Source: Fontibacillus panacisegetis (GTDB taxonomy: Bacteria; Bacillota; Bacilli; Paenibacillales; Paenibacillaceae). From it: a DNA stretch of 64,000 bases. The notes under the pieces were generated by a model that was not told the DNA's origin, did no database searches, and was given only the letters and a program-made list of their open reading frames with translations. The stretch covers positions 63,554 through 127,553 of the forward strand of contig NZ_FNBG01000008.1 in assembly GCF_900102215.1 (NCBI RefSeq), in the 5' to 3' direction. Below, piece after piece: positions 43,265 through 63,804 of the stretch; the first letter of the stretch is position 1; the number at the start of each line of letters is the position of its first letter. Made by a program: the position numbers and the translations under genes.

Positions 43265-44212
43265 CTAGCGCGTTACACCACCCATAAAGCCATCCGTAGT
43301 AACTCCACCACGATATCCATTTGTATTCACGTTACTCGGAGTTGTTGGAGCGTAGCCGCTTGGACCTGTCATGGTACCTGTTCGACCAGGGAAAACACGA
43401 TTAATCAAGGTTTGAAAATCAGCCGTCAAATTGTGAAGAGGTGCTCCACTACGTGATTTTGTTCCGTAGTTCCCCATCTCCGTTACAAAATCAGCGTCTT
43501 CTGATACGTAGACGTTACGAATGTGTGGAGCGGATTTTTTTACGGTATGAGCAATAGAATCCTTTAACTTTTGCGGAACCCGATCCGTTACACGTCCTGT
43601 CGTTCCTGTCCCCGTTGTAGTGTTCATTCTATGAAGAGTTCCGTCTGTTGTTGTACCTCTTGTTGTATAACCAGTTCCCATGTTATTTCCTACACCTACA
43701 GGACCTAAAATCCCTGTACTACTTCCAGCGAGTCCATTGTCAGCTATTCCACGTGTACCATAATTAGCCCCATACGGACCAGAAACATTGGTCGTCCCCC
43801 GATTATTGGTTACACCATTAGCTATGATACCGTGATTTGGTGATACCAAACCGTTGGAACGTGTAGTCAAATGAGTACCGTGAGTGGTTACACCATTGCC
43901 ATGGCGCGTAATCGCTACATATGCATCACGATCTGTAACAACTACATGTGCAGCCTGCACTTCTTTAAGCTGCGCTACTCGGTTACTTAACGCCGCACTG
44001 TACCGCATAGAATTAATTTTGTTATGATGACCATTCGTGTTTCGGGTGAACATACGGTTCTGTGGAAGTGAATTTACGTTGTATTTGCCATCAGGGTGTC
44101 TAAGGCTCTGTGTCTTCACATTGTTTCTGGTCGTTCCACAAGCTGTCAACCCAACTGTTCCGGCAAGCAATGCGGCAGATAATGATAAGCTAACTACTTT
44201 GGCTCCACGCAT
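43265..44212 (-). CDS. YhcN/YlaJ-type sporulation lipoprotein
   Basis: This 315-residue lipoprotein has a signal with the lipobox LTAC (Cys24 counted from the chosen start). A YhcN/YlaJ-type domain is split in two. The first part has SNRVAQLKEVQAAHVVVTDRDAYVAIT. The second has DRVPQKLKDSIAHTVKKSAPHIRNVYVSEDADFVTEMGNYG. Between them lies a long Gly/Asn/Thr-rich linker (about residues 105-215). I choose the ATG at 44212 after GGGGGATG; the frame extends upstream without a site. Family members sit in the inner membrane of spores and affect germination or outgrowth. It closes the 43-51 kb minus-strand group. Confidence 0.88.
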   Translation of the reverse strand: MRGAKVVSLSLSAALLAGTVGLTACGTTRNNVKTQSLRHPDGKYNVNSLPQNRMFTRNTNGHHNKINSMRYSAALSNRVAQLKEVQAAHVVVTDRDAYVAITRHGNGVTTHGTHLTTRSNGLVSPNHGIIANGVTNNRGTTNVSGPYGANYGTRGIADNGLAGSSTGILGPVGVGNNMGTGYTTRGTTTDGTLHRMNTTTGTGTTGRVTDRVPQKLKDSIAHTVKKSAPHIRNVYVSEDADFVTEMGNYGTKSRSGAPLHNLTADFQTLINRVFPGRTGTMTGPSGYAPTTPSNVNTNGYRGGVTTDGFMGGVTR

Positions 44213-44336
44213 GTAGTCATCCCCCATCAAATTTAAAATTTTATGATGAACAGGAGTTATCATGCACTGATTCAAAGTAGGCCATTCAGGTAAACTTACC
44301 CGAGTGTAATAAACATGCACGTGATATAAGTGTTCA

Positions 44337-44615
44337 CTACAGTGCCTCCAATAGTCGTCGAATCATTGCCCCGTCAGGAATGGAATACGACCCAGGAAGA
44401 TGAGATGGCATAGATGGCCAAAACAAATCCCCCCTGTTCCAATATAATGGCGTCAAGGAAGCTTTCTCTAAAATAAATTCCTTTCCTAATAAGGTCGGAT
44501 CAAGAGTCATTAGAAAGTCTGAATCGGGATATTTATAGCCACCAGGCAACTTCTCCTCAAAAATGCTCCACATTTCTGTATGAAGCTTCTCAGGATTACA
44601 AATGCTAAATATCAT
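44337..44615 (-). CDS. Hypothetical protein (92 aa), coupled to a glycosyltransferase gene
   Basis: I do not recognise this small protein (SICNPEKLHTEMWSIFEEKLPGGYKYPDSDFLMTLDPTLLGKEFILEKASL). Trp, Tyr, Leu and Pro are frequent. Its start lies within the last codons of the FG-GAP glycosyltransferase gene, an 11-base overlap, so it is probably translationally coupled to it and may be an accessory protein. Confidence 0.6.
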   Translation of the reverse strand: MIFSICNPEKLHTEMWSIFEEKLPGGYKYPDSDFLMTLDPTLLGKEFILEKASLTPLYWNRGDLFWPSMPSHLPGSYSIPDGAMIRRLLEAL

Positions 44616-47133
44616 TCCCTTTCACCTTCTCCATCGCCTTATCGTAAACCGCAAGCGTTCGTTCCAATAAAGTATTCGAAGACCAGTGGATTTTTGCCCA
44701 TTCTGCAGCTTGTTGAGCTATGACCGATCGTAATGCAGAGTCATTCATCAATTTCGTCAATTGCTCGGCCAATTGCTCCTCATTTCCAACATCAAACAGA
44801 AGCCCTGTTGATTCATTCTGAATCATTTCAGGAATTCCTCCGGCATTTGATGCAATGATGGGTATTCCAGCTAATTGTGCCTCCATAATGGAGAAAGGCA
44901 AATTATCCTGAAGTGAAGGAAGCACCATGACGTCGGATTCCCGCAAAATTGCGGGTACATCTTTACGATCTCCAAGTAATGTAATTCGATCCTTAATCCC
45001 TGCATTTTGAATTAATTGTTCGATCTCTGTACGCAGTGGACCATCTCCAAGCAGGAAACAATGCCAATTTGCATTCCCCTGTATCCGACTCAGCGCCCCG
45101 ATCAGCGTCTGATGTCCCTTTACTGGAACCAATCTTGCAGGACAGCTGATGATGAATGAATTCTCCTCTGGCATCTGAAGAGGTTGAGAAAGCGGCTGAT
45201 GCGTTTTCAATGCAAACTCATCAATGGATAACCCGTAGGGTATAATGTCGAATATATTAGACGGAACCTCAAATTGCTGCATTTCACGTACCAACCATTC
45301 CGTAGGCACAATAGTAGCATCCGCTGAAACGCATCCGTAATATTCTTCATCAGCAACATATTTCCACGCCAAGCTATTCTTATTTTGGATATCACCAGAG
45401 AACATATGCTCTTTGGCAAGCAGTCCGTGAATCGTGGCGACTAATGCAGTGGATGCTGGCTTCACCCGTGATAAGGCCCGGGTAGAAATTATATCCTGTG
45501 TATGGATAATGTCATATTGCTCAAGATCAAATAAACAAGCTGCCAGCTCAAAGCAATATCTCTCGATTTCTCGATAACGGACCCAAGGATCTACATGGGA
45601 CAAATATCGTTGATAAAATTGAAATACCTTTTCGTAAACCACACTTTTGATCTGCCACTTATTCACCTTTTTCTCGCCATCGACCAAATAATAATGAGCC
45701 ATATCAGGATGATGAGCGAGCACATCCACATGATGGCCTTGTCTCACTAATTCCTCTTTCAGTAAACGAACATAGACGTCTACTCCGCCAACATGGGGAA
45801 GATACCAATAGGTCGTCAGCAAAATCCGTTTTTTAGAGGAAAATGATTCAACAGGTTCAGCACTTAACGAATGAACTTGATTTTGATCTTTAGCATCGTG
45901 AGGAGAAGCTTTTTGAGAATGAAGGGGAGGAGACATTGACAGAAAATACACGCTTCCCGACATCAGTTTTTTTCGATTGCCTGCTGAAACAGCCCCTATC
46001 GCGATACACGGGCCTACTGTTGTATCCATACAGGAGAAAGCATGGCCGAATATCGCAGCCTCTTCCCCATTGAATTCATGCACGACTTCGCCATTTAAGT
46101 CCAGCAAATAAACAGCTCCGGTATGTGAACCCGCCAAGACCAACGGCTGTTGTCCGTCCATACAAAACGACAGCACTTTCGATCCCAGCTCCTGCTGCCC
46201 AAACCACCCATTTTTTTTCAAAATGGTTCGATTCTGTACGATGGATATGATCCTGACTTGCCCCCCGCGGGGATACTTCCCCCCCGTTCTAGGAGAACCA
46301 ATGATCAAGTCAGCAATTCCATCCCCATCCATATCCCCAAGCGCTAAATTTCTGCCTATTTCGTCATATGAACGCTCACCTGAATATTCATTAAGAAGAC
46401 CTTCTCTATTGTAAATAAGCACTCTGCCATTCCGTGTCAATCCCTGACTAGAATGCCGCGGAGCACCCATAACTAGTTCATCTTTACCATCGCCATTGAT
46501 ATCACCTGAAACAAGAGATACCCCTAGACCCTCACGATCGCTACCCATAAATTCTCCAAGAATACTCCTGTCACGCCCCGAATAAATGGTGACTCTACCG
46601 TCTCGTTCCTCCCAATTCGGATCTAAATGATGAGAAGACAAGGCGATATCTGGAATGCCATCCCCATCCCAGTCAAGAATGCTTATAGATCGGCCTAATG
46701 AGGCGAAATCTTCCCTACCGCTCCATTGATATAACAGTTGTCCGCTCTGTCCCGAATATACATAAACCTCACCACATTGTATCTTGGTCCCGCTGCTGGC
46801 ACGAGGTGCTGTCACAATAATTTCTGGGATACCATCCCCATTCAAATCTTCCAGAGCTATAGATGTTCCGAAGCAATCCCCATGCTTTTGACCGTTCAAT
46901 GTAAATAACAATTGCAAATCGTGACTATATACATAGACTCTGCCTGTATAATAATGGGGAATCGGATTTACTCCATCTTCATCCTCAATATAAGTTGCTG
47001 TGCTGGCAGAAACAATCCATTCTTGCCATCCATCTCCGTTAATGTCTCCGGATAAAATTACGTCTCCAAACCGGTCATGCTCCCTCTCGCCCTCTAATCG
47101 TTTCCATAAAAAAAACGGTAACTGATTGCTCAA
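44605..47133 (-). CDS. FG-GAP beta-propeller fused to a GT4 glycosyltransferase
   Basis: This 842-residue protein has two halves. Residues 1-395 hold seven FG-GAP/VCBS-like repeats. Five keep the calcium-loop pattern (GDINGDGWQEW, EDLNGDGIPEI, LDWDGDGIPDI, GDINGDGKDEL, GDMDGDGIADL) and two are degenerate, together enough for a closed seven-bladed propeller. After a linker, residues 437-842 are a GT4 enzyme (RILLTTYWYLPHVGGVDVYV, IIHTQDIISTRALSRVKP, IISCPARLVPVKGHQTLIGAL, MVLPSLQDNLPFSIMEAQLAGIPIIASNAGGIPEMI). No signal peptide is seen, so it acts in the cytoplasm, presumably of the mother cell. The GT half is paralogous to the enzymes at 47147 and 49763. Confidence 0.9.
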   Translation of the reverse strand: MSNQLPFFLWKRLEGEREHDRFGDVILSGDINGDGWQEWIVSASTATYIEDEDGVNPIPHYYTGRVYVYSHDLQLLFTLNGQKHGDCFGTSIALEDLNGDGIPEIIVTAPRASSGTKIQCGEVYVYSGQSGQLLYQWSGREDFASLGRSISILDWDGDGIPDIALSSHHLDPNWEERDGRVTIYSGRDRSILGEFMGSDREGLGVSLVSGDINGDGKDELVMGAPRHSSQGLTRNGRVLIYNREGLLNEYSGERSYDEIGRNLALGDMDGDGIADLIIGSPRTGGKYPRGGQVRIISIVQNRTILKKNGWFGQQELGSKVLSFCMDGQQPLVLAGSHTGAVYLLDLNGEVVHEFNGEEAAIFGHAFSCMDTTVGPCIAIGAVSAGNRKKLMSGSVYFLSMSPPLHSQKASPHDAKDQNQVHSLSAEPVESFSSKKRILLTTYWYLPHVGGVDVYVRLLKEELVRQGHHVDVLAHHPDMAHYYLVDGEKKVNKWQIKSVVYEKVFQFYQRYLSHVDPWVRYREIERYCFELAACLFDLEQYDIIHTQDIISTRALSRVKPASTALVATIHGLLAKEHMFSGDIQNKNSLAWKYVADEEYYGCVSADATIVPTEWLVREMQQFEVPSNIFDIIPYGLSIDEFALKTHQPLSQPLQMPEENSFIISCPARLVPVKGHQTLIGALSRIQGNANWHCFLLGDGPLRTEIEQLIQNAGIKDRITLLGDRKDVPAILRESDVMVLPSLQDNLPFSIMEAQLAGIPIIASNAGGIPEMIQNESTGLLFDVGNEEQLAEQLTKLMNDSALRSVIAQQAAEWAKIHWSSNTLLERTLAVYDKAMEKVKGNDI

Positions 47134-47146: not shown

Positions 47147-48679
47147 CTACACCATCACATCTACTGTTATCGGGTTAGCTGTAACAGTAATTTTTTTCGT
47201 CATCATCCGCTTTAAATCACGGGTCCATCCCAGTTCATAGTTGCCAGGCTGAACGTCCTGAAATTCAAAGCTGCCGTCTTCATCACTCTTCATGCTGCGA
47301 AGAACGAATCCAGAAATATCTATAAGATGTACCCAAACATCTTGGACAGGGGCCATCGCTACTATATCTGTAACGATTCCCTTCAAAGCTGTTACCGAGT
47401 CTTCTACGTCTTCAGCTCCACCGAGCTCTGGGAAGTCATGATTTAATCGAGCGGAGTACTCCTGCTCCCACAACGGAGAATGACCTCCGTCCTTCATAGA
47501 TTTCTCATATACATCAATGGTTTGATCTATCATGATCGAATCATTCCATATCGTTAAGGCATGTTTCCTTGCTTCTCTGGATTGCTCTTCACGCAGAGCC
47601 GTATCCTCTACCAATAACAACAATTTTTCAAATAAATCTTGAGCATTTCCCGGTTCTACAAGTTGGCCATTTACTCCGTCCTCTATCATCTCTACAATGC
47701 CCCCAACCCTTGAGGCTATTACCGGTTTACCAAGACTCTGAGACTCAATGATAGAAAAAGGAAGATTATCCTGTAGAGAAGGAAGCACTACAATATCCGT
47801 TTTTGAGATAAGTTGGGGAACATCAGTACGATTTCCGAGAAGCATGATATGCTCCTTAAGCCCAAGCTTCTCCGTTTGCAGCTCAAGATCATTTCGCATC
47901 ACTCCGTCTCCGATCAGCCAGCAAACAACATCCTTTCGAACATCAACTAACATTCTCATTGCCTTCAATAAGTAATTCTGACCTTTTATAGCTACCAATC
48001 GAGCCGGGCAAGCGATAATGATTTGTTTGATGGAGGAATCGGATGCACATGAGATTTTGTCAAAATACTGCTGGTTCAGACCATACTGAATAATATACGA
48101 ACGAGGATGATTAACTTGAAAATTCAGAAGACTGCGAGATAACCAACGACTAGGGAGAATGAGAAAATCAGCGGACATCGAACCATAATATTCTTCGGCC
48201 GATAAGTATTCACGCTCTGCCTGCGAACGAGCCACAATCTCATTGCTAGCAATCCATTCCGTAGCGAGACATCCATGTATAGTCGCAATGAGAGGGACAT
48301 GATCCGGTTTGGTCATTCTGCATACGAATGTCGAAATAATATCCTGAGTGTGTATCACATCGTATTGATCAAACGCAATTTCACGGCACACCAATTCAAA
48401 AGCGAATTTCTCGCTCTCTCTCCACAGCATCCACGGAGTTGGTTTGATCTGGTCTCTCTCAAATCTTAGCCTCACTTCTCTTTCAGCCTTGGCAAGGAAG
48501 GGTTTCTTATCTATATGCATTCCGTTTTTCAATAAATAATATTTTGCTAGACTTGGGTGCTGCGCGAGCATTTCCACCTCATGCCCCATTTCCTCCAGAC
48601 GGGACTGAAGAATCTTAAGGTATGTGAATACTCCCCCCGTATGTGGATATGCCCAATAGGTTACAAGTAATACCTTCAT
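47147..48679 (-). CDS. GT4 glycosyltransferase with a C-terminal CarboxypepD_reg-like domain
   Basis: This 510-residue protein starts with a GT4 enzyme (VLLVTYWAYPHTGGVFTYLKILQSRLEEMGHEVEMLAQHP, YDVIHTQDIISTFVCRMTKP, IIIACPARLVAIKGQNYLLKAM, IVVLPSLQDNLPFSIIESQSLGKPVIASRVGGIVEMI). It ends, from about residue 430, with a small beta-sandwich resembling the carboxypeptidase regulatory domain (ALKGIVTDIVAMAPVQDVWVHLIDISG...SDEDGSFEFQDVQPGNYELGWT). That module is more usual in extracellular proteins. It lies 13 bp upstream of the FG-GAP fusion gene and shares its GT ancestry. Confidence 0.9.
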   Translation of the reverse strand: MKVLLVTYWAYPHTGGVFTYLKILQSRLEEMGHEVEMLAQHPSLAKYYLLKNGMHIDKKPFLAKAEREVRLRFERDQIKPTPWMLWRESEKFAFELVCREIAFDQYDVIHTQDIISTFVCRMTKPDHVPLIATIHGCLATEWIASNEIVARSQAEREYLSAEEYYGSMSADFLILPSRWLSRSLLNFQVNHPRSYIIQYGLNQQYFDKISCASDSSIKQIIIACPARLVAIKGQNYLLKAMRMLVDVRKDVVCWLIGDGVMRNDLELQTEKLGLKEHIMLLGNRTDVPQLISKTDIVVLPSLQDNLPFSIIESQSLGKPVIASRVGGIVEMIEDGVNGQLVEPGNAQDLFEKLLLLVEDTALREEQSREARKHALTIWNDSIMIDQTIDVYEKSMKDGGHSPLWEQEYSARLNHDFPELGGAEDVEDSVTALKGIVTDIVAMAPVQDVWVHLIDISGFVLRSMKSDEDGSFEFQDVQPGNYELGWTRDLKRMMTKKITVTANPITVDVMV

Positions 48680-48930: not shown

Positions 48931-49761
48931 TCACACATCTTCAGAATTTCGAACCTGTTGGGCAAGTAATGCTATTGTGTCTGCATTGACTATAGTACCT
49001 ACGGATTCATCTACATTGAGCCTGTTCATATCTGGATTTAGTTGATGATCGGAGCCTGCTTCAAGAGCTAGCAAATTAGCAAATGCAGAATCAGGAGTAA
49101 TTTCAGCACCCATAATGGAGTCCCTTAGTTTGGAATCTGCGGCAGCCTGTTCATATAAATTTTCCGTAGGAATGACAGCTGCCGGGATGTGATCCTGTAC
49201 TGATTCTGGCACTACTGCTATTGGCGCACCACCATGAAAATGATGACCCGGGTGGTCTGGGACACATATTTCATCCGGTGAAAGAGGCTGAGGAGTATGG
49301 CGAATATCAGGCGCTAAAAGGTTTGACATCAAGTCGCCTGGATTAGGATGTACCGGTGCTGGAGCTGCAATAGGCAATTCCTGTACTGGATTGTTGGGGC
49401 GCTGAGTTGGATGCTTGTAATATAGCTTTCTCCTCATATATTTATATTTGATTTGTTTTGTTCTGCGTCTTCTGGATTTCAGTTTTGAACTAGGGGCTAT
49501 TCTGACCTGATTGTGCTTTCTCTTTCTTTTGACAACCTTATAACGTTTCTTGACTGGCTTTGAATTTCTTGATGATCTTGTGCTTCTTTTCGGTTTTGAT
49601 GATCCCGGTTCCGGTTTTTCACATGGTCCCGGTAGCGGCAGCTCCGGTCTTGCAAACCACCCGACCTTCTTCATTACAGGGCCTCTCCTCACGAGTGGAA
49701 TCCGGGGTAAATGTCTCCTTGCACAGTTGGATTTACTGGAGGGATTGCATTTTGTCATCAA
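48931..49761 (-). CDS. Highly basic protein with acidic C-terminal half, unknown (possible coat protein)
   Basis: This 276-residue protein has a strongly basic N-terminal half (residues 55-115: KPKRSTRSSRNSKPVKKRY, KRKRKHNQVR, KLKSRRRRTKQIKYKYMRRKLYYK). A Pro/His linker follows, then an acidic helical C-terminal half (SAFANLLALEAGSDHQLNPDMNRLNVDESVGTIVNADTIALLAQQV). I do not recognise it. Its AAAGGAGGAG site lies inside the last codons of the upstream glycosyltransferase, so the two are coupled. The start is TTG 49761 or ATG 49758. A structural spore-coat role, or binding to an anionic polymer, is an inference from composition and context. Confidence 0.8.
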   Translation of the reverse strand: MMTKCNPSSKSNCARRHLPRIPLVRRGPVMKKVGWFARPELPLPGPCEKPEPGSSKPKRSTRSSRNSKPVKKRYKVVKRKRKHNQVRIAPSSKLKSRRRRTKQIKYKYMRRKLYYKHPTQRPNNPVQELPIAAPAPVHPNPGDLMSNLLAPDIRHTPQPLSPDEICVPDHPGHHFHGGAPIAVVPESVQDHIPAAVIPTENLYEQAAADSKLRDSIMGAEITPDSAFANLLALEAGSDHQLNPDMNRLNVDESVGTIVNADTIALLAQQVRNSEDV

Positions 49762-49762: not shown

Positions 49763-50992
49763 TCATTCTCCTCCTTTAGTTACGAGGTGCTGATTAATTA
49801 CTGAGGAATAGACATCCATCGTTCTCTGCATCAAGGTATGAGTTGACCATTGTTGAATTGCCCACCGTCTAGCTTGCTCTCCTATACGTTTTCTCAAATC
49901 TCTATCCTCCATCAATCTGAGAAGATTCTTAAACATTTGCTCACTCTCTCCAACTGGTGAGATCAAGCCTGTTTCCTCATGTGTAACCATTTCCGGAATT
50001 CCGCCTGCATTTGAGACTACAATCGGCTTTCCTGCAGCTTGTGCCTCCATGACAGAGAACGGCAGGTTATCCTGTATACTCGGGAGTACAAAAATATCTC
50101 CTCGCCCAAGAATGGACGGAACGTCATTACGATCCCCCAAAAACTCAACATGCTGCTCTAAGCCAAGCGCTTGTCTTTGGACCAGCAATTCATTTCTGCA
50201 TGGACCATTTCCCAGCAAAAAGCAAATCCAGTCGCTGCGAACCTGTTTCAGCCTTGCCAGAGCATCTAACAAATATTTATGTCCCTTAATCGTTACTAAC
50301 CTTGCAGGACAAATAAAAACCTTATGACCTTCTTTTACCGGCAAATCCACATGCTGCTGCAGCCGTTTTTTAAATGACTTGATATCGATCCCATACGGAA
50401 TAACCTTCAATTTATGTTCTGCAACTCCAAATTCGTCAATCAATAGGTTCTTAAGCCATTGCGTCGGCACGATGGTCATATCGCTTGATACAGCTCCGTA
50501 GAATTCCTCTGCGGCGATATATTTCCACTTGAGCGTATCCTTCCCGGTAATCTCACCAGTATAGAGAAATTCTTCGGCAAGACAGCCATGAATCGTCGCA
50601 ATCAATGGTGTTGATTTAGGCTTTACCCGCCACAATGCCCTGGTGGATACAATATCCTGCGTATGGATCAGATCATACTTTGTAAGATCAAACGCTGCAG
50701 CAGCCGCTTCAAAGCAATATCGCTCAATATCTCTCCACCTGATCCATGGGTCTACATGCTTCATGTTCGTATCATAATATCCGTAGATCTTGTCATAAAT
50801 AGGGTCCTTTAGCTTTGCTTTATCCAAATAACGTCCATTGTTGGGCATATAGTACTTCTTCATATCCGGATGATGCGCGAACACATCTACATGATGACCC
50901 ATTGCCTCCAGTTCTTTGCGGAGTACATCTACATAAGTCGAGAGCCCTCCTACATGAGGCAAATAGAAATACGTCGTTAGTAATATCTTCAT
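49763..50992 (-). CDS. GT4 glycosyltransferase, YtcC-like
   Basis: This 409-residue GT4 enzyme has ILLTTYFYLPHVGGLSTYVDVLRKELEAMGHHVDVFAHHPDMKKYYM at the N-terminus. Later come YDLIHTQDIVSTRALWRVKPKSTPLIATIHGCLAEE, VFICPARLVTIKGHKYLLDAL, and the donor-site region IFVLPSIQDNLPFSVMEAQAAGKPIVVSNAGGIPEMV, in which the second Glu of the usual GT4 EX7E motif is conserved. Length and neighbours resemble B. subtilis YtcC of the ytcABC-ytdA spore-surface cluster. It is the unfused member of three paralogues here. A sigma-K-type promoter lies just upstream. Confidence 0.9.
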   Translation of the reverse strand: MKILLTTYFYLPHVGGLSTYVDVLRKELEAMGHHVDVFAHHPDMKKYYMPNNGRYLDKAKLKDPIYDKIYGYYDTNMKHVDPWIRWRDIERYCFEAAAAAFDLTKYDLIHTQDIVSTRALWRVKPKSTPLIATIHGCLAEEFLYTGEITGKDTLKWKYIAAEEFYGAVSSDMTIVPTQWLKNLLIDEFGVAEHKLKVIPYGIDIKSFKKRLQQHVDLPVKEGHKVFICPARLVTIKGHKYLLDALARLKQVRSDWICFLLGNGPCRNELLVQRQALGLEQHVEFLGDRNDVPSILGRGDIFVLPSIQDNLPFSVMEAQAAGKPIVVSNAGGIPEMVTHEETGLISPVGESEQMFKNLLRLMEDRDLRKRIGEQARRWAIQQWSTHTLMQRTMDVYSSVINQHLVTKGGE

Positions 50993-52582: not shown

Positions 52583-52600
52583 TTAGGAGGGGTGACTAAA

Positions 52601-53578: not shown

Positions 53579-53579
53579 T

Positions 53580-54909: not shown

Positions 54910-55012
54910 TCCATTCACTCCTCGCGAATATTGATATTGTTACATGATCTAGTATATTCGCAATCCATAGAATGGTATGGACTTATGAGCTCCACACTGC
55001 CTTTTTCCACTT

Positions 55013-55901: not shown

Positions 55902-56870
55902 TCATCCCCCTTGATGTCGATGCCGATTCAAAACATCGTCATAGATGGACGCATAACTGCTAGCCATCTTCTGAATTGTGTATCTTTCTGACACGTACTT
56001 TCGCAGCTCCTTCAGAGAGTAGGATGTTTCTCCCATAACCTTATTGGCCATTTCATGAACATCACCGCACAGGAAATCAGGGAATCCCGCTAACACTTCA
56101 GGAACAGCCCCTCTAGGGTAAGCTGCGACAGGAGTTCCACAAGCCATTGCCTCAACCATAACTAGACCGAACTGTTCCTCACACGCGGTAGGGAAAAGAA
56201 GCCATCTAGCATACTTCAGCAATCTTTGTTTGGTTTTCCCGTGGACCTCCCCTACATATTCAATATTTGGGTTGTTTTGGATTCTGGGCAGCAGCTCATC
56301 GAACAACTCGCCATCCCATGGAGGTCCGGCAATGATCGTTCTCATTCCTGTCAGCTCTGCCACCCTAATGGCGTCTTCTACCCCTTTTTCCCTATCGATT
56401 CTACCAAGGAACAACAAGTAGTCCCTCTTATTCTTAGTAAATTCATACTGCTCAATATCAATGCCATTATGCACATAGTAACCATGATCACGATGGATCG
56501 ACTGGTTAAGCTTGGTTTGACTCACATATACGGGGTTTCGGGCTGGTTGATTTATGGACCAATCCGTATGGATCGTAGAAATCACAGGAATATCTAACTC
56601 ATCTTCTCCGAATATCAAATCATGGGTATGATCATGAATGATATCTGTATCATCAGGCATCGTCTGAAGGACAAATTCTTTAATGTCCCAATGATCCCAT
56701 CTATGTCCATATGGAATAACAATTCCGCCAGCCTTGCTTCCAGCAACGGCGTATACATATACCTCATGGCCCATTTCTTGAAGCCCCATCGATAAATTAT
56801 AAACGACACGTTCTAATCCCCCACTGCCGGGAAGAGGGATAATATATGGTGAGATTTGAACAATAACCAT
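55902..56870 (-). CDS. GT4 glycosyltransferase
   Basis: This 322-residue GT4-type enzyme has an acceptor-side Gly loop (ISPYIIPLPGSGGLERVVYNLSMGLQEMGHEVYVYA), DIIHDHTHDLIF, a short second Rossmann domain (YLLFLGRIDREKGVEDAIRVAE) and the donor motif TACEEQFGLVMVEAMACGTPVAAYPRGAVPEVL, with both Glu residues of EX7E. It is shorter than most GT4 enzymes (about 360-400 residues) but has every core element. It lies seven bases upstream of the galU-type gene. Confidence 0.9.
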   Translation of the reverse strand: MVIVQISPYIIPLPGSGGLERVVYNLSMGLQEMGHEVYVYAVAGSKAGGIVIPYGHRWDHWDIKEFVLQTMPDDTDIIHDHTHDLIFGEDELDIPVISTIHTDWSINQPARNPVYVSQTKLNQSIHRDHGYYVHNGIDIEQYEFTKNKRDYLLFLGRIDREKGVEDAIRVAELTGMRTIIAGPPWDGELFDELLPRIQNNPNIEYVGEVHGKTKQRLLKYARWLLFPTACEEQFGLVMVEAMACGTPVAAYPRGAVPEVLAGFPDFLCGDVHEMANKVMGETSYSLKELRKYVSERYTIQKMASSYASIYDDVLNRHRHQGG

Positions 56871-56892: not shown

Positions 56893-57408
56893 CTAATCGG
56901 TAATAATTCTTTCGTATGAAATATAAGATTCCAATCCATCAATCACATACATTTGACTCTCGTAATGATGAAGAAGCTCCATCTTTTTCTTCAGGATGTT
57001 GTCGGGCAGCTTATCATCGGTCGTATCGAACACACATAAATTGTTCAGACGCATGTTATGAAGAATACGGGATAAAGCCTTGTGCTGGCTGTGCCCGTAT
57101 TCCCCATGTAGATTATGTGTCATAATACGCTCATAATGTCCCGACTTCAGCACTTTTTCCACATCGTTCTTCACTTGTTCTTCATCAAAGCTGCCTTCAT
57201 ACTCATCAGGATAATCCCATATTTCATAGCCTGCTTGAGCAAATTCCATTGCCTGTTTAAATTCTTTGGAACGTACAGCATCACTGCCATTGGTTAAACA
57301 AATTACTCTCCACCCTGGCTGTGAGATCAACGCTCCTCCCCCAAATATACTCTCGTCGTCAGGGTGAGCGACAATCATCAGCTTGTTATAAAGTTGTCTG
57401 AAAGACAT
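56893..57408 (-). CDS. PIG-L/LmbE-type N-deacetylase
   Basis: This 171-residue protein has the family zinc motif MIVAHPDDESIFGGGALI (AHPDDE) near the N-terminus and HNLHGEYGHSQHKALSRIL with the third zinc ligand. It is shorter than most PIG-L proteins (about 220 residues) but both metal motifs are present. The family removes acetyl groups from GlcNAc-type sugars, so it may deacetylate a sugar of the surface glycan. Its ATG overlaps the stop of the upstream glycosyltransferase by one base. Confidence 0.9.
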   Translation of the reverse strand: MSFRQLYNKLMIVAHPDDESIFGGGALISQPGWRVICLTNGSDAVRSKEFKQAMEFAQAGYEIWDYPDEYEGSFDEEQVKNDVEKVLKSGHYERIMTHNLHGEYGHSQHKALSRILHNMRLNNLCVFDTTDDKLPDNILKKKMELLHHYESQMYVIDGLESYISYERIITD

Positions 57409-58775
57409 TATTTCACCTCATATACCAGCCGTTGGTTGCGGATAACATCATTGTAGGCATCCAATAAAACATCCGTCGCATCAACGATATCAAATTGCTC
57501 CTTCACGAAATTCCGGCCAACCCATCCTCTTTCTTCCTGCTCTTGGTCAGACAGATTTAGTACTTGACGCAAGCTGTTTTTAATTTTATTCACCGACCAG
57601 GCTTCATCGGCATGATGGTCCCCGAACCAAGAATCCCAAGCCGTTTCATAGTTGCCTGGATGAATAGGTCCAATAAAGCCTTTACTGCCAATCGCTACAA
57701 AAGGGCATCTGCACGACAGAGCTTCAACCGCGATTCTTCCAGTACCTACAACGACATCACATGCGGTGTAATAACGTAACATATTCAATGAATTTCCGAG
57801 CAAATGGATAAAATCTTGTCCTACTTGCTTATGAACTTCTTTTGCCAGGTCTGAAATCAATTCGCTTTGTCTTCCTTCCCCTACAATGAGCAATTGAAGG
57901 TTTGGATATTGTTCTTTGCGCAGCTGTCTGCAGGCTTCGATCAAATCCTTGCAAATATCTGCCTTTTCCCAGGATAGTCTGCCTGCGTACATAATGATAG
58001 GTGCTGTATCTTCAATACCTAATTCTCTGCTCAAGTCAATTTGTGCATAGGGACGATCATCATATTGAATGGTATCAATTCCATTCGGAATCAAATGTGT
58101 AGCAACTCCGTTGACTGGTATTTGCTTTAAAACCGAGGGGCTGACACAAACGAGAGATTTGCTCCTTTTCATCACTTCGGCTTCATTATTAGAATAATGA
58201 CCATGAACAGTAAAAATCAAAGGAATACGCAGCTGTTCAGAAGCGACAATTGCGAAATGGCTGGATGGGATTTGGTGGGCATGAATAATATTGATCTCTT
58301 CCAAATTTAAAATTTGCTTCATTTGCGCAACGATTCTTTTCTCATCAGCAAAATTTTGAATGAAATTATCAGTAACGAAATCCAATTCATAAATCGGACA
58401 TCCCAATGCAGCAAATGCATCCATCATTTCGCCCTTTTTCCCAACGACAACTACATGGATTCTTCTTCGCAGCAATTCACGCACGCTGGAAAGAACATGT
58501 GTCTCTGTGCCGCCAACATTAAACTGATCCAGAACCATCAAAATACGGGGTTCCCAATCGTGGTTTTTTGTCCTGTACTCTCCTGCCGGATTGTTCTTTT
58601 CTTCATTATTTAACAGAACGATTTGTTTTGGAGCCTGAGCATTAACGACATATTTAACAATCGGCCGATTTGCTGGTGTCTTGGCTGAAGCTTTGGCGGT
58701 AGTCTTTACAGGAGACTTTTCAGGAACTTTTGCCGAAACCCTCTTCTTCATATCGATATTTTTCCTTCTCTTCAA
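57408..58775 (-). CDS. GT4-type glycosyltransferase with a basic low-complexity N-terminus
   Basis: This 455-residue protein has an N-terminal tail of about 75 residues rich in Lys, Ala, Pro, Val and Thr (MKKRVSAKVPEKSPVKTTAKASAKTPANRP). A GT4 fold follows (ILMVLDQFNVGGTETHVLSSVRELLRRRIHVVVVG, INIIHAHQIPSSHFAIVASEQL, IIMYAGRLSWEKADICKDLIEACRQL, CDVVVGTGRIAVEALSCRCPFVAIGSKGFIGPI). The tail resembles histone-like or matrix-binding tails and is unusual on a glycosyltransferase. The start is TTG 58775 after AAAGGAG, or ATG 58751. B. subtilis CotSA is a comparable coat-associated GT4. Confidence 0.88.
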   Translation of the reverse strand: MKRRKNIDMKKRVSAKVPEKSPVKTTAKASAKTPANRPIVKYVVNAQAPKQIVLLNNEEKNNPAGEYRTKNHDWEPRILMVLDQFNVGGTETHVLSSVRELLRRRIHVVVVGKKGEMMDAFAALGCPIYELDFVTDNFIQNFADEKRIVAQMKQILNLEEINIIHAHQIPSSHFAIVASEQLRIPLIFTVHGHYSNNEAEVMKRSKSLVCVSPSVLKQIPVNGVATHLIPNGIDTIQYDDRPYAQIDLSRELGIEDTAPIIMYAGRLSWEKADICKDLIEACRQLRKEQYPNLQLLIVGEGRQSELISDLAKEVHKQVGQDFIHLLGNSLNMLRYYTACDVVVGTGRIAVEALSCRCPFVAIGSKGFIGPIHPGNYETAWDSWFGDHHADEAWSVNKIKNSLRQVLNLSDQEQEERGWVGRNFVKEQFDIVDATDVLLDAYNDVIRNQRLVYEVK

Positions 58776-58795: not shown

Positions 58796-59473
58796 TCAAT
58801 AAAATTCTCTGGATCTCTGATTGGAATGAAGACGGTAGTAGTACAATACATCATGTAAATTATCTACTCCATAACCGTTCTGAATAAATTTAGCTACGTA
58901 TTCATAATCTTCCGCCCCGTTCATATTTCGGGTTAACCCGCCTAACTTGTCAAATCTACTGGCTCGAAACATAGCTGTCGGGTGTGAGACACAATGATCA
59001 CCTTGAGCGTATCTGGAAACGATGTCTTCTCCGTAACTAAGCCAGTTTGACAACGTCTGCTCGCTTGCATTCTCATCCTCAAAAGCCATATAGTTCGTAC
59101 CTACTAAATCGATATCCGGGTGTGCATTCAGATACTCAACTTGTTTCTGCAATCGATCCCGATGAGAGAAGTCATCTGCATCATGAATAGCGATATATTC
59201 TCCCTGGGCCAAAAAAAAACCACTCGTTACGGCACCAGAAAATCCTGCGTTACGCGGCATTTGCAGCAGTGTCAGTCGAGTAAATCCGGTTCGCATTCTC
59301 CACCTGAGGACGACGTCAGCTGATCTGTCAGTGGAATTGTCATCAACAACGATAATTTCCATGTCTTTATAGCTTTGTTCGCTCAAATAGTCCAAACATT
59401 CTTCAATATAGTGCACAGCATTATAACAGGGTATAACAACGCTAACTAATTGATGAATCCTTGAGTAGGCCAA
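58796..59473 (-). CDS. GT2 family glycosyltransferase
   Basis: This 225-residue GT-A enzyme has LVSVVIPCYNAVHYIEECLDYLSEQSYKDMEIIVVDDNSTDRSADVV at the N-terminus, the DxD-type metal site AIHDADDFSHRDRLQKQVEYL (near residue 95) and the acceptor-side region MNGAEDYEYVAKFIQNGY. It has no membrane segments. The start is a TTG at 59473 after a GATGAGG site. It is the first gene of the minus-strand run down to galU. Confidence 0.92.
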   Translation of the reverse strand: MAYSRIHQLVSVVIPCYNAVHYIEECLDYLSEQSYKDMEIIVVDDNSTDRSADVVLRWRMRTGFTRLTLLQMPRNAGFSGAVTSGFFLAQGEYIAIHDADDFSHRDRLQKQVEYLNAHPDIDLVGTNYMAFEDENASEQTLSNWLSYGEDIVSRYAQGDHCVSHPTAMFRASRFDKLGGLTRNMNGAEDYEYVAKFIQNGYGVDNLHDVLYYYRLHSNQRSREFY

Positions 59474-59647: not shown

Positions 59648-61132
59648 TTGACGGAATACACGGAATCTGAATATTCGGAATATACAGATTACTCGGAATA
59701 TACGAACTACACTCATAGCAATAATTCAACCGATGATAGCGAAAATAATAAAGTAAAGCGCATTTGTTTTGCTATTCTTGTTCATAACCGTAAGGAAGTC
59801 GTAATTGATCTGCTGGATAACATTCGTTGCTATTGCCCAAATAGCTCAATTGTTTTATTTAATGGCGGCGATGATCCTGAGTTATGCCATGGACTGGGAT
59901 ATCCCGTCTGTCCAACCAGCAGAAAGCTTTCATATGGAGTCACCGCTGTCTACATGCTTGAAGTCATGAGATGGCTCGAAGATAGTAATAAAAAATACGA
60001 CTATCTGGTCAATCTTGATTCTGATGCGCTGTTCGCAAAAGAAGGTTACGAATCCTACATTATTAGAGAAATGGAAAACAAGGATTATATGGGGGTAGGA
60101 ACTAAAGTTCCGGACGACGATTTTTATTGTCTCATTCAGCTGCGGCAAGAAAAAAAGCAATGGGAGCCCCTGCTAGGACAAGAACCCTACTTTGAGTCAT
60201 TTAACGTTGGACAGGTCTACAGCAGAAATCTAGTTCAGCGATTTCTCAACAGCGACCAATATAGTCTATTTCATAAAAACCTGATGGAAACTGAGGCCTT
60301 CGGGGTAGATGAGCTTGTCTTCGTCACGATGACAGACCGGCTTGGAATACAAGTACATCCTTATCAAGAAGATGTTGCATCTACGATAAGATACCGTCCC
60401 CATTTTCCACTGGACGAAATGGTGCATTATTTAAACCAGAAGCCTGGCTGCTATCTGTTCCATCCGGTTTATCGAAAAATGAAGGATGAAACTAGAGCGG
60501 CTGTACGTGAATTGATGAAACGCGAGATTCAGTATGATCCCGATATTCAAGAGTCTTTCATCAATAAAGATCTGGGACGGTTCCCGTACATGATCAGACG
60601 AAAAAAAAATAAAGGCACCGTCATGGAATGGATTGCCGCTTCTGAGGAAGAAGGACTGCTGTATTGGAAGGTGAAATCCGGTATTTTGTATGGTCCTTAT
60701 TCGTTCGGTAGTGGTAAGGTAAGCGGATTAAGCGTCCTGGAAACCAGTTATGGAAATATCGAAGTGATCTGCCGAATCGGCACTAGCCTCGTTCATTTTT
60801 GGAGAGATGACGATACAGGGGAATGGTTCCAATCGGATACTTTTGCCGAAGAAGTCGTTGGAATGCCTTCATTTATACAAAGCAGTTATGGGAGCTTCGA
60901 AGTGTTAGCTCCGCTAAAAGGCGGAGGTCTAGGACATTGGTGGAGGAACAATGACAATCCAGAGCATCCTTGGATTGGTCCTCACGTATTCGGAAAGGAT
61001 CATTTTACTGATGCAATCCTTATCGAGAACAATTCCAGTCAACTCACCGCTGTAGTGTTGCAAAATGACGTATATAAATATTTTGTCAGGGATGACCGCA
61101 ACAGTTGGCAGTGGTTAGGCCCTTACGAATGA
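59648..61132 (+). CDS. Putative glycosyltransferase with Y/S/E/T tandem N-terminus and lectin-like propeller
   Basis: This 494-residue protein has three parts. Residues 1-33 are a tandem repeat of (E/D/N)YSEYT-type units. Residues 37 to about 320 resemble a GT-A glycosyltransferase (RICFAILVHNRKEVVIDLLDNIRCYCPNSSIVLFNGG, DYLVNLDSDALFAKEGYESYII with a DxD-like motif, FNVGQVYSRNLVQRFL, FGVDELVFVTMTDRLGI). From about 325 it has blade-like repeats (LLYWKVKSGILYGPYSFGSGKVSG, LVHFWRDDDTGEWFQSDTFAEEVVGMPSF, LGHWWRNNDNPEHPWIGPHVFG), as in PLL-type lectin propellers. The start is TTG 59648 after GGAGG. The domain calls are from pattern only. Confidence 0.78.
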   Translation: MTEYTESEYSEYTDYSEYTNYTHSNNSTDDSENNKVKRICFAILVHNRKEVVIDLLDNIRCYCPNSSIVLFNGGDDPELCHGLGYPVCPTSRKLSYGVTAVYMLEVMRWLEDSNKKYDYLVNLDSDALFAKEGYESYIIREMENKDYMGVGTKVPDDDFYCLIQLRQEKKQWEPLLGQEPYFESFNVGQVYSRNLVQRFLNSDQYSLFHKNLMETEAFGVDELVFVTMTDRLGIQVHPYQEDVASTIRYRPHFPLDEMVHYLNQKPGCYLFHPVYRKMKDETRAAVRELMKREIQYDPDIQESFINKDLGRFPYMIRRKKNKGTVMEWIAASEEEGLLYWKVKSGILYGPYSFGSGKVSGLSVLETSYGNIEVICRIGTSLVHFWRDDDTGEWFQSDTFAEEVVGMPSFIQSSYGSFEVLAPLKGGGLGHWWRNNDNPEHPWIGPHVFGKDHFTDAILIENNSSQLTAVVLQNDVYKYFVRDDRNSWQWLGPYE

Positions 61133-61145: not shown

Positions 61146-61937
61146 ATGTATCGACGAGCTGTGCAATATATAAAACCGATGGAGCAGGGCTGGACTCGTC
61201 CCCACATATTTAAATGTGATGATCATAAAACGTATGTAGTCAAGTTAAGCAACAATCCTGACGGCACTAGCGTTCTGGCAAACGAATGGATAGCCAGCCG
61301 TCTAGCAGAATTGTTGAATCTACCTATAGCTAAATGCAGCATCGTAATGATTACCCGCGATCTACTAGATATGTATCCTGAATTAAAGAAGCTAGATATC
61401 CCCCCTGGTCTCCACATTGGCACCCGATATGCTAAAGATGGAGTTAATGTAGGGGACAACGTTGATTTATCAGATTGCAATAATGTACATTACGCTGCCG
61501 GGATGATTGCATTCGATCATTGGATCAATAACTGGGATAGACATGTCACACAGGCGAATCTGCTCTACTTGGATGAGAAGAGAGAGATCATGTTGATAGA
61601 CCATTCCGATGCATTTTTCGGACCGGACTGGAACATGGAAGAGTGGTGGGAGGATCCAGAGAAAATGGATGTATTCTGGGGACCCCTGTACGAAAAATTT
61701 GTTCCATTTATCGATAACTATGATCCGTTTGATCCTTACCTAACCGCTATAGAATCGCTAGACGAAGATGACATCAGAAACGCTATACATGGATTACCGG
61801 ATCAATGGTCTATTCCAGAGGATGATTTAAATGAATTGGTCGACTTCCTGCTCTATCGCAAGGATCGCGTTCGCTTTGCCATCGAGGAATTGATACATCA
61901 TTTCCCAGTCTGGCAAACTGCTAGGTATGAGTACTAG
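61146..61937 (+). CDS. HipA-like kinase
   Basis: This 263-residue protein resembles the stand-alone HipA-like kinase family. It has an ATP-site-like N-terminal lobe (RPHIFKCDDHKTYVVKLSNNPDGTSVLANEWIASRLAELLNLPIAKCSIVMI), the catalytic loop FDHWINNWDRHVTQANLLYLD (Asp and Asn near residues 120-135) and the metal Asp in MLIDHSDAFFGPDW. No HipB-type antitoxin gene is next to it, so a toxin role is unlikely. It lies 13 bp after the propeller protein gene and upstream of a Ser-tailed protein, so a protein kinase acting on coat components is possible. Confidence 0.85.
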   Translation: MYRRAVQYIKPMEQGWTRPHIFKCDDHKTYVVKLSNNPDGTSVLANEWIASRLAELLNLPIAKCSIVMITRDLLDMYPELKKLDIPPGLHIGTRYAKDGVNVGDNVDLSDCNNVHYAAGMIAFDHWINNWDRHVTQANLLYLDEKREIMLIDHSDAFFGPDWNMEEWWEDPEKMDVFWGPLYEKFVPFIDNYDPFDPYLTAIESLDEDDIRNAIHGLPDQWSIPEDDLNELVDFLLYRKDRVRFAIEELIHHFPVWQTARYEY

Positions 61938-62049: not shown

Positions 62050-62709
62050 ATGTCGAGTAGTGCTCATCACAAGAAGAAAGAAACGGTAACCTCCGGTCCT
62101 TTTTTTGTTCCTCTTCTTACTCCAGGTTATGCCCCTAACAATAGAATTGTCGTCACACTTAAAAATCCAACTCACAAAAAATTGTCAGTTTTCGTATCTC
62201 TCGGAATCTGTAAAGAATGTCCGCCAGCAGGATGGCAGCCACCACAATCACCTGCACCTACTCCTGTACCAGGGCCTCCTCCTCCTAACCAATGTATAGA
62301 CACAATTAAAACTTTAGAAAAGGAAATAAGTCTTGGATTTCATCATGTCGATCCCATGAGCTGTCTCCGTATTGAAAAAACCTTTGATTATTACTATTTA
62401 GGAAATACTGTATTAAGAGTCGAAGCCAAAGGCGACTTTAACGTTGATCATGAATGTAATACTTTGCTCGGTGGTTTACTTGAAATCAGTAGTGTTGTCG
62501 GTTTCATCAATCTTCCTATGGCCAACACGATAACTCTCCCGGATTATGTTACCGCTAACCTTCAACAGTCAGCAGGTCTATACTACAATATTAACGGTCT
62601 GGATGTTGCAGATCCTTCAACTTTCATAGCGTTTGGTGACTACGTCGTTGTTAAGAAACACGCTAATTCAGATTCCAGCTCTAGTTCCTCCAGCTCCAGC
62701 GACCACTAG
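62050..62709 (+). CDS. Unknown protein with Pro-rich linker and poly-Ser tail (possible spore-surface protein)
   Basis: This 219-residue protein has no signal peptide. It has a short N-terminal beta-type part (FFVPLLTPGYAPNNRIVVTLKNPTHKKLSVFVSLGICKECPPAGW) and a Pro-rich linker (SPAPTPVPGPPPPNQC, near residue 75). A second domain follows (FDYYYLGNTVLRVEAKGDFNVDHECNTLLGG), and the tail is SDSSSSSSSSSDH. Four Cys residues are spread over the two domains. I do not recognise the family. It has a strong AAGGAGAG site and is flanked by two kinase-like genes. Composition fits a structural surface protein. Confidence 0.7.
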   Translation: MSSSAHHKKKETVTSGPFFVPLLTPGYAPNNRIVVTLKNPTHKKLSVFVSLGICKECPPAGWQPPQSPAPTPVPGPPPPNQCIDTIKTLEKEISLGFHHVDPMSCLRIEKTFDYYYLGNTVLRVEAKGDFNVDHECNTLLGGLLEISSVVGFINLPMANTITLPDYVTANLQQSAGLYYNINGLDVADPSTFIAFGDYVVVKKHANSDSSSSSSSSSDH

Positions 62710-62742
62710 TAAGAGATTCATTCATCATTGCTGCTTCTGCAA

Positions 62743-62773
62743 TACAGCCTCTTTCCTTCTGAAAGAGGCTGTA
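62743..62773 (+). terminator. Hairpin after the Ser-tailed protein gene
   Basis: TACAGCCTCTTTC and GAAAGAGGCTGTA form a perfect 13-bp stem with a 5-base loop. There is no clear T run after it, so it could be an attenuating or stabilising hairpin rather than a full terminator. Confidence 0.55.
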
Positions 62774-62820
62774 CCTATCTATACCTCATTCTACCAACTT
62801 GATTCCGGAAGGTGGTTTGC

Positions 62821-63804
62821 GTGCTTGATCCCCTGCTGCTAGCAGCTTCCTCTCATTATGGCTTTAGCATAGAGAATTACGATCTTCTCCATGAGACTTC
62901 GCGAACCTTGGTCGTCTCACTTGAGACAACAAAAGGTAGCTACGTCTTAAAGAGCATTTACGTCACGGAGAAGAGGCTTCAATTTATTTTGGAGGTAGAA
63001 CACTTTTTACGTGAAAAGGGAATATCCATTCCAATGGTCTATCCAACATTAAGTGGAGAGTCCTATCTGAATTGGGAAGGAGATCTTTTCGTTTTACAAG
63101 AAAAAATTCAAGGTACCTCGAACTCCCCATCTTCTTTGGATGCAATCACAAGTAAAGCTGCCCTACTCGGAACCATGCATAACGTATCACTCGGATTCCA
63201 TTCTCACTTTGGTCCAGACTATGCCGAAGAGCATGATTGGGAGAAACACTATATTCGAAAGATTCGAGACATGCTAGAGTGGAAGGATCGGTTCTCCAAG
63301 TCAAAATCTGCTAAAAAGAAAATGATTCTGGAGGGGATCAATGATTACCTGAAGGCCGGAATTAGAGCATTAAAGCTAATTCAGCTTCACGCTCAGTTTC
63401 AGCAATGGAAGGACCTTCCGCCTCATGAACACTTTATAGCTCACGGCGACTTCCACAGCGAGAACATACTTTACACCGAAGAACAACTATATATCATTGA
63501 CTGGGAATTTGTTCGGTACAACTATCCCTCTAAGGATATTGGCCGTTTATTAAACAGTATATTAAAGCATTCTGAATCTTGGGATAACGCCTCTTTTCAG
63601 AACCTCATCCAACATTATACTAGGTACAACCCACTTAACGATTGGCAGCTGCAAATGCTGTACCTTGATTTATCGTTCCCACACAACTTCTACCGATTTC
63701 TTCAGAACCGCATGTATAAGGAAATGTCCATTGAAGAAATTGAAGTATTTTTACGTAGAGAGCATGATAAAACCTCCTATTTAATAAAAGAATACCCTAA
63801 TTAA
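62821..63804 (+). CDS. CotS-family spore coat kinase-like protein
   Basis: This protein of about 327 residues has the aminoglycoside-phosphotransferase-type kinase fold of the CotS/CotI/YutH family. It has an ATP-binding lobe (RTLVVSLETTKGSYVLKSIY, VLQEKIQGTS), the catalytic loop HFIAHGDFHSENILYTEEQL (HGDxxxxN) and the metal Asp in LYIIDWEFVRYNYPSKDIGRLL. I choose GTG 62821, eight bases after GGAAGG; a GTG at 62812 overlaps that site. CotS in B. subtilis is a coat protein next to cotSA and ytcABC-ytdA, which matches the neighbours here. Confidence 0.9.
   Translation: MLDPLLLAASSHYGFSIENYDLLHETSRTLVVSLETTKGSYVLKSIYVTEKRLQFILEVEHFLREKGISIPMVYPTLSGESYLNWEGDLFVLQEKIQGTSNSPSSLDAITSKAALLGTMHNVSLGFHSHFGPDYAEEHDWEKHYIRKIRDMLEWKDRFSKSKSAKKKMILEGINDYLKAGIRALKLIQLHAQFQQWKDLPPHEHFIAHGDFHSENILYTEEQLYIIDWEFVRYNYPSKDIGRLLNSILKHSESWDNASFQNLIQHYTRYNPLNDWQLQMLYLDLSFPHNFYRFLQNRMYKEMSIEEIEVFLRREHDKTSYLIKEYPN

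Follow-up and report, generated by a model that had tools for sequence, protein, structure and literature searches.

The closest described systems are the Bacillus subtilis gene clusters sps, yfn, ytdA-ytcABC and cge, which are named in PMC7439481 and PMC11708026. PMC4670728 describes ytdA as dependent on sigma-K; from microscopy it was suggested there that one spore-polysaccharide branch (SpsI, SpsK and YtdA) acts at the coat itself and that GerE-controlled genes are needed to recruit YtdA. We analysed a stretch of 64,000 nucleotides of Fontibacillus panacisegetis (contig NZ_FNBG01000008.1, here C27:63554-127553, of a 5.26 Mb genome designated G000), which is called the window. An earlier note, made from the letters of the window, had described positions 43265 to 63804 as a spore-surface glycan cluster. 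We consider it probable that this span makes up the strain-variable section of a locus for a spore-surface polysaccharide; the locus occupies a fixed slot from nagBA-yhcN to an ECF transporter in most of the genus.

A gene set of the ytc type, consisting of a GalU-type uridylyltransferase, an NDP-sugar dehydrogenase, a short-chain dehydrogenase/reductase (SDR) and a family 4 glycosyltransferase (GT4), is present together in the span. The likeness to the B. subtilis clusters ytdA-ytcABC, spsA-L, yfnHGFED and cgeAB-cgeCDE appears to extend to CgeB-type and family 2 glycosyltransferases (GT2) and to a coat-associated kinase-like protein; it need not mean orthology. Unlike in B. subtilis, one slot of 17-46 kb gathers these functions in the genus studied here and holds exchangeable cassettes, several core proteins share a YxxG tag, and lectin-like and FG-GAP fusions occur. 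The cluster is real and partly ordinary in that it contains spore glycan enzymes; a capsule-like variable locus with a tagged core goes well beyond this. That its size, larger than the ytc set, is the main point, as in the earlier note, was not supported.

Profile searches with Pfam and NCBIfam confirmed 19 open reading frames (ORFs) between 43265 and 63804 and nearly all of the families assigned to them. Four features had been missed, namely FG-GAP repeats (44605), a CarboxypepD_reg-like tail (47147), HipA_2 (61146) and a GT-A-like plus lectin-like protein (59648), and the proteins at 44337, 48931, 54559 and 62050 had no Pfam match. The cluster did not stand as a unit, nor did its boundaries. 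Its right end at 63804 reflects the window edge only: the 3' end of a double GT2 gene lies within the window (63944..64000, minus strand), and the locus runs on to about 82561 in extended coordinates (C27:146114; C27 position = window position + 63553). The part that continues past the edge consists of a block with the double GT2 and four further glycosyltransferases (63944-69656) and a conserved core with the tagged proteins (69826-82561). What reads as an ECF transporter adjoins the locus end from 82626; the name does not come from a curated match. The core begins with two glycosyltransferases with DUF3880 and Glyco_trans_1_2 domains, which we take to be CgeB-like, a name that likewise does not come from a curated match. 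They are followed by a K/R-rich protein of 125 residues, small proteins, a GT2, a GT-D protein, an RmlA-type nucleotidyltransferase, two GT2s with K/R-rich N-termini, a GT4 and a YheC/D ATP-grasp protein.

The gene neighbourhood was then compared in 39 congeneric genomes. The nagA gene was found in 38 of them and EcfS in 30; 29 had both, three of these on different contigs. In all 26 genomes with both genes on one contig, the distance from nagA to EcfS was 16.7-46.3 kb, and the slot between nagA-YhcN and YheCD-ECF was filled by 17-46 kb of sugar genes. Families were defined by reciprocal best hits with at least 38% identity and 60% and 50% coverage. YhcN, YheCD, EcfT and EcfA were present in 26 of 26 loci, as was nagA, by selection, since the presence of both nagA and EcfS had been the criterion for picking the loci. 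CgeB1, CgeB2 and the core GT2 were found in 25 loci, the K/R-rich protein, RmlA, the two further GT2s and the GT4 in 24, and GT-D in 23. By comparison, the G000 families from 44337 to 69656 occurred in 1-10 of the 26 loci each, except for the dehydrogenase family (18/26). In one genome (G157) the flanks and the core were present with no middle cassette. Families 9 and 10 represent another accessory set, seen in 21 of the 26 loci, whose members in G096 matched UDP-GlcNAc 2-epimerase, Polysacc_synt_2, RmlD, epimerase and GT2 families in Pfam. The slot and the core are thus shared by most congeneric genomes, whereas the span first described is mostly exchangeable: the genes from 44337 to 63804 are for the most part strain-variable cassettes of a larger locus. 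The earlier unit was an arbitrary cut that combined the conserved flank gene YhcN with variable cassettes.

Since these genes are mostly variable, the organisation of the locus resembles that of capsule loci. Capsule and O-antigen loci have conserved flanks and a core, variable sugar and glycosyltransferase genes, and a slightly lower GC content in the variable part. The same layout was found here, the GC of the variable blocks being slightly lower (0.418-0.435 versus about 0.45). Unlike in those loci, none of flippase, polymerase and exporter was found, and an intracellular assembly at the spore is proposed. The cluster as a single inherited unit was tried and rejected, as the blocks A, C and D and the core B combine and are ordered differently among the genomes.

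The core and the cassettes could also be unrelated neighbours, a spore-glycan core beside horizontally acquired sugar cassettes with another role such as a phage receptor or general glycosylation. This would fit the finding that cassette C (55902-63804, without GalU) stands alone, in the same gene order, in two genomes of another genus (G110 and G094), and that its GC is lower (0.418 versus about 0.45). However, most of the 26 loci hold sugar cassettes in the same slot, from YhcN to the core or the ECF end, cassette C itself includes a CotS-family gene, and the promoter element described below is enriched upstream of the variable genes too. We regard unrelated neighbours as unlikely.

A YxxG/GxxxG repeat is common to four glycosyltransferases and the K/R-rich protein, all five of them core proteins. 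It is N-terminal in CgeB1, CgeB2 and the core GT2, lies before the catalytic domain in GT-D and is C-terminal in the K/R-rich protein, whose K+R content averages 30% (24 loci). A regular expression for this tag matched 120 of 122 members in the 26 loci, where 1.6 matches were expected after shuffling each protein. Among the other ORFs it matched 14 of 991, with the ORFs of nine partial loci counted too; five of the 14 are YhcN repeats, one is a CgeB1 fragment by reading, and three are in GT2c. Because the expression was written after inspection of the G000 sequences, the other genomes test the conservation of the tag and not its discovery. In the DNA of G000, the pattern [G][YF]xx[G][YF]xxG gave 27 hits versus 16 for the reversed control, and seven of the 27 were clustered in a 6-kb stretch of the core. 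Of the other 20, 15 were checked, and eight of these matched the reading frame of an ORF with 50 or more residues; by reading, FliH, a PBP and metabolic enzymes are among them.

The tag was followed further in a named collection, where at least 577 relatives were found. The best 80 of them were used, nearly all from Paenibacillus and Cohnella, plus Thermobacillus and three differently labelled records. Two loci gave no core-GT2 ORF; of the remaining 78, 63 matched the expression. Among the 15 misses, inspection by eye showed a degenerate GxxxG run in ten, while the other five were miscalled, truncated or without tag. CgeB1 matched in 51 of 55 cases, CgeB2 in 38 of 39 and GT-D in 52 of 60. The 32 of 32 matches of the K/R-rich protein are partly circular, since its label rests on a BLAST match that is often within the tag itself. 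GT2c matched in 10/61, GT2d in 2/65, RmlA in 0/67 and the unlabelled ORFs in 36/913; two recurring segments of hydrophobic appearance account for 18 of these 36, and eight or more resemble genuine tags on inspection. When 45 of the 78 GT2 ORFs were aligned, two tag glycines were invariant, and two more and a tyrosine were at least 90% conserved; the sequence preceding the tag had no consensus. Further neighbours of the core GT2 (L188:11697-12890, L190:11583-12767 and L193:11589-12881) carry a related GHxxGFxxGxxDGF-like repeat, so the tag set may exceed five families.

In an AlphaFold2 model of the core GT2, residues 12-48 form a single helix that includes the tag (pLDDT about 64-80) and precedes a GT-A domain, which is well modelled. 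The best matches of this GT-A core were polypeptide GalNAc-transferases (TM about 0.41), and the likeness was not used for function. Segments with a comparable YxxG/GxxxG repeat are known from the SMN YG-box and the GxxxG helices of FliH and Yae1. On the K/R-rich protein, SMN_YG-box (PF20635) scored 17.8 bits, under its cut-off of 21.3 (E 0.0029), and Yae1_N gave 1.2e-4, below the curated cut-off. The difference is that the segment is common here to several bacterial glycosyltransferases and the K/R-rich protein. We infer that the tag acts as a docking or oligomerisation helix. A generic helix or folding element that each protein needs on its own is also quite conceivable, at somewhat less than an even chance: in the model the tag is part of a single N-terminal helix leading into the GT-A domain, and a protein that we take to be FliH has a similar GFSQGFEEG stretch. 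It would not readily explain why the tag is found on different enzyme families (CgeB-like, GT2 and GT-D) and also C-terminally on a small protein rich in K/R, nor why it lies at such different distances from the catalytic domain, with the N-terminal position in the core GT2 ranging from 7 to 127. No paper on YG-tagged transferases was found in the open-access literature searched.

No polytopic membrane protein was found by a hydropathy scan of the G000 locus between the YhcN gene and EcfT, and no Pfam match to a flippase, polymerase or exporter was obtained among its proteins. The observation that the span has no flippase, polymerase or export gene was therefore correct. It holds for the 26 loci, to which the search was confined, apart from 3 of 770 ORFs between YhcN and EcfT with at least three hydrophobic segments: two neighbouring ones in G160, located between YheCD and EcfT and including one that reads like an ABC-transporter permease, and a 222-residue ORF in G155. 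The locus also contains spore-named families, CotS and YhcN, with profile scores above cut-off, and YheC/D. A gerE-like gene lies nearby, in line with the earlier note: a 74-residue GerE-like LuxR-HTH regulator at 33209-33433 (minus strand; PF00196, 81.5 bits, 3.4e-23), about 10 kb away. What reads as the same flank from gerE to YhcN was seen in G032.

CATAnnnT is the -10-like element of mother-cell promoters. Its expected counts in the genus loci were obtained from first-order shuffles. The element was found upstream of CgeB2 in 16 of 22 cases (5.2 expected), of sm3 in 19 of 20 (2.0), of GT2d in 15 of 19 (2.5), of YheCD in 14 of 19 (3.2), of YhcN in 9 of 19 (3.4), of family 34 in 8 of 8 (1.5) and of the dehydrogenase family in 6 of 12 (2.1). 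The variable genes together had it in 35 of 118 cases (18.8 expected), and nagB was not enriched (1/14, 1.1 expected). A two-box version was found upstream of CgeB2 in 14 of 22 (2.8 expected), of sm3 in 8 of 20 (0.6) and of the variable genes in 23 of 118 (7.9). By eye, a block AGTCGTCCAC was noticed upstream of YheCD in 12 of the 19 listed upstream sequences, often about 20 bases before CATA.

SpoIVA was present in 39 of 39 genomes of the genus and in 268 of 398 of the class. The core-GT2 profile matched in 78 class genomes, 77 of which have SpoIVA; the single exception is in the sister genus g8. Outside the family most of these matches cover the GT2 domain only, and a few, such as G323, G484, G516 and G187, begin earlier. 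In g8 a match covering the tag region was found in 0 of 16 genomes and a match to the GT2 domain in 10 of 16. SpoIVA was absent from all four g8 genomes tested (4 of 16), and g8 is apparently an asporogenous sister genus. The earlier note had named the same cluster in non-sporulating relatives as evidence against itself; as far as the comparison was run, no such case was seen.

A vegetative exopolysaccharide or cell-wall glycan locus with no tie to spores could hold many of the same genes, as NDP-sugar dehydrogenases, GalU, GT2 and GT4 enzymes also occur in capsule and teichuronic acid loci, and NCBIfam gave side matches to TuaC, TuaG and TviB, all under cut-off. Yet the span has no polytopic membrane protein and the 26 loci only the three ORFs mentioned, CotS, YhcN and YheCD are spore-named, the upstream regions are rich in CATAnnnT, and the tag region of the core GT2 is missing in all 16 g8 genomes, of which the four tested lack SpoIVA. 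A purely vegetative role is thus improbable. The best reading is still that of a spore-surface glycan assembled without export, which gains support from the hydropathy scan, the g8 comparison and the CATAnnnT enrichment. The spore link has been strengthened and is not proven.

Several observations weigh against the proposed spore-surface locus. CATAnnnT was not clearly enriched upstream of GT4e (6/18, 2.3 expected), f20 (3/12, 2.2) and EcfS (7/21, 4.0) and was absent upstream of f10 (0/12), f31 (0/10) and RmlA (0/5); some of the genes without enrichment may be operon-internal. The promoters of orthologues are not independent. In the span itself the signal is weak, with the element upstream of five of the nine genes that have at least 30 bp of upstream DNA and six sites versus 2.5 expected from the window-wide density; the two-box site AC-N17-CATA was found there only upstream of 49763. 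The shared promoter type, an argument of the earlier note, was therefore weak within the window; across the genus loci, enrichment of the motif, a possible sign of sigma-K dependent transcription, was seen for several core genes and for the variable genes as a group. Eleven SpoIVA-bearing genomes of genus g14 match the core GT2 only from about the GT2 domain on, so a missing tag region alone is no marker of non-sporulators. The median Jaccard similarity of the family content over 325 pairs of loci was 0.21 for the non-core and 0.89 for the core families, a contrast that is partly by construction because both classes were called from frequency; only the contiguous grouping of the variable genes into blocks is independent evidence. 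Of the nine genus genomes without EcfS, six have CgeB1 within 20 kb after nagA, but it was not found there in G128, G112 and G166, so the locus is not universal in the genus. Finally, the open-access literature searched yielded no data on transcripts, mutants or sugars from a Paenibacillus and no paper on a Paenibacillus spore-glycan locus.

The left flank of the span is formed by the gene of a YhcN/YlaJ-family sporulation lipoprotein (43265..44320, minus; PF09580, 78.5 bits versus a cut-off of 26.3), which scored 88.6 bits with TIGR02898, under the cut-off of 99.75. Its real start is likely near codon 37, just before a lipobox-like LTAC, where the match of the G032 homologue begins. The variable genes start with a 92-residue protein of no family (44337..44615, minus; 3/26 loci). 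Next is an 842-residue fusion of N-terminal FG-GAP repeats to a C-terminal GT4 (44605..47133, minus; FG-GAP 127 bits, Glycos_transf_1 123 bits). Among 148 genomes of the family, GT4 matches to it were found in 43 and full-length matches only in G000 and G096; its family occurs in four of the 26 genus loci (G000, G096, G155 and G170). Elsewhere in G000 (C40:112355-114997; L016:14356-16998), a GT4 gene pair of the same subfamily lies beside what reads as a nif gene cluster, and a similar adjacent GT4 pair was seen in G096 (C1:1560762-1563190). A GT4 with a C-terminal carboxypeptidase-regulatory-like domain follows (47147..48679, minus; Glycos_transf_1 121 bits; CarboxypepD_reg 28.9, under the cut-off of 32.3), then a K/R-rich low-complexity protein of 276 residues (48931..49761, minus; no Pfam; K+R 17%) with a weak G096 homologue (27% over the C-terminal half) and a further GT4 (49763..50992, minus; Glycos_transf_1 133 bits; family in 9/26 loci).

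The next genes concern the sugar chemistry. The YtcA-like, putatively UDP-HexNAc-type 6-dehydrogenase (51296..52582, plus; TIGR03026, 421 bits versus 189.8) has the GGHCIPVDP motif that had been reported for it. Its closest solved structure is Cap5O (4e-66), and it is nearest to UDP-ManNAc-type enzymes; WecC and TviB models score above UDP-Glc models, and no equivalog cut-off was reached. The adjacent SDR (52592..53578, plus) is a probable UDP-GlcNAcA decarboxylase of the UDP-XylNAc synthase type, or an epimerase. Its closest solved structures are of UDP-glucuronic acid decarboxylase 1 (1.8e-52), and no NCBIfam equivalog cut-off was met. According to PMC5078965, such a dehydrogenase and decarboxylase make UDP-XylNAc in B. 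cereus. The predicted pair here resembles that pathway (UDP-GlcNAc 6-dehydrogenase and UXNAcS), which suggests that XylNAc is the favoured product, with UDP-XylNAc formed rather than a uronic acid retained. It differs by a third SDR, a GalE/TviC-like 4-epimerase (53517..54497, plus; galE 182.7 bits, under the cut-off of 262.3), so GlcNAcA or GalNAcA is kept as an alternative. The true start of this gene is likely codon 22 (about 53580), just past the upstream stop, as the G096 homologue matches from residue 22. A retained N-acetyl uronic acid was rejected as the favoured product, since 52592 is nearest to UDP-GlcA decarboxylases; the deacetylated uronic acid proposed earlier is thus less likely than decarboxylation to XylNAc.

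Between the epimerase gene and cassette C there are a 119-residue protein with GPGTG repeats (54559..54918, minus; no Pfam; G096 homologue) and the YtdA-like GalU-type UTP-glucose-1-P uridylyltransferase (55013..55894, minus; TIGR01099, 357.8 versus a cut-off of 326.8), which is outside the stand-alone cassette in G110 and G094. The GPGTG repeats also occur in a different protein at extended 66339-67436 and are possibly a second low-complexity tag. Cassette C begins with a GT4 (55902..56870, minus; same cassette in G110 and G094, also in G032), a PIG-L-type deacetylase (56893..57408, minus; PF02585, 59.7 bits versus 28.2; AHPDD present), a GT4 with a K-rich N-terminus (57408..58775, minus; Glyco_transf_4 65.7 bits) and a GT2 (58796..59473, minus; PF00535, 122 bits). 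After the 494-residue protein with GT-A-like and lectin-like parts (59648..61132, plus) come a HipA_2-type kinase (61146..61937, plus; PF20613, 100 bits), whose gene adjoins the 59648 homologue in G110, G094 and G032, and a 219-residue protein with a Ser-rich tail (62050..62709, plus; no Pfam; one homologue in G110, three copies in G094). The three copies are at L064:777-3413, with a CotS-like fragment between the first two. The cassette ends with a CotS-family kinase-like spore coat protein (62812..63804, plus; TIGR02906, 180.6 versus a cut-off of 172.7).

The protein at 59648 has a GT-A-like N-terminal part (VNLDSD) and a C-terminal part that resembles a PLL-lectin propeller. Relatives were found in 7 of the 148 family genomes, three of them with the C-terminal extension besides G000, and none in the named genome collection. 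By sequence the C-terminal part matched PLL lectins with E 0.04-0.13, and DUF346 (best E 0.0016) matched in two of eight family members, the window's own member having no match. The single-sequence model had a pLDDT below 50 over residues 1-315, so only its C-terminal part was used. In Foldseek the first 26 matches were all PLL, PHL or CV39L lectins (best 3e-8, TMt 0.42), with about 175-215 columns aligned versus about 340-360 residues in solved PLL chains. A full-length PLL propeller was thus not recovered, and a PDB profile search with the family alignment returned just two unrelated matches (E about 0.9). The C-terminal 180 residues or so of the protein share the modelled fold and a weak sequence match with PLL, PHL and CV39L lectins (DUF346 propellers); unlike these, the part is about half as long and is fused to a GT-A-like domain. 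Transferases with carbohydrate-binding domains would be in keeping with enzymes that stay attached to the glycan being extended.

Outside the locus, the window encodes an iron-uptake-like set between gerE and the nag genes (35301-39303: imelysin (M75), Dyp peroxidase and FTR1 permease), and a set of like gene sizes is at the same place in G032. A 1393-residue alpha-amylase with several CBM25 and fibronectin III domains is encoded at 9948-14129.

The gene content, the conservation of the locus and of the tag and the lack of exporters in the locus were observed; for the spore location, the sugars, the order of reactions and the docking, we propose the following. Late in sporulation, nucleotide sugars would be made in the mother-cell cytosol. 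GalU would form UDP-Glc, the dehydrogenase UDP-GlcNAcA and the UXS-like SDR, acting on the latter, UDP-XylNAc; the GalE-like SDR would provide a 4-epimerised sugar and the core RmlA a dTDP sugar. Soluble GT2, GT4 and CgeB-like enzymes would transfer these sugars straight to coat proteins or to the growing glycan on the forespore surface, and because of this direct transfer no flippase, polymerase or exporter would be needed. PIG-L may deacetylate amino-sugars. The cassettes would fix the sugar composition, the conserved core would be the assembly machinery, and the YxxG/GxxxG helix of the five core proteins would let the enzymes dock at the coat, on the tagged protein rich in K/R. More tentatively, and with appreciable doubt, this may be a spore glycan assembly line of the Paenibacillaceae, held by a shared zipper tag that docks on the coat, in which cassettes can be exchanged to switch a spore 'serotype', some of them providing lectin- or propeller-fused transferases as readers of the growing glycan.

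A tag common to several transferases and a small basic protein makes the recruitment of spore-polysaccharide enzymes to the coat directly testable. If the locus is indeed a capsule-like spore locus, spore surfaces would diversify by cassette exchange, and this would bear on spore adhesion, ecology and phage or host recognition.

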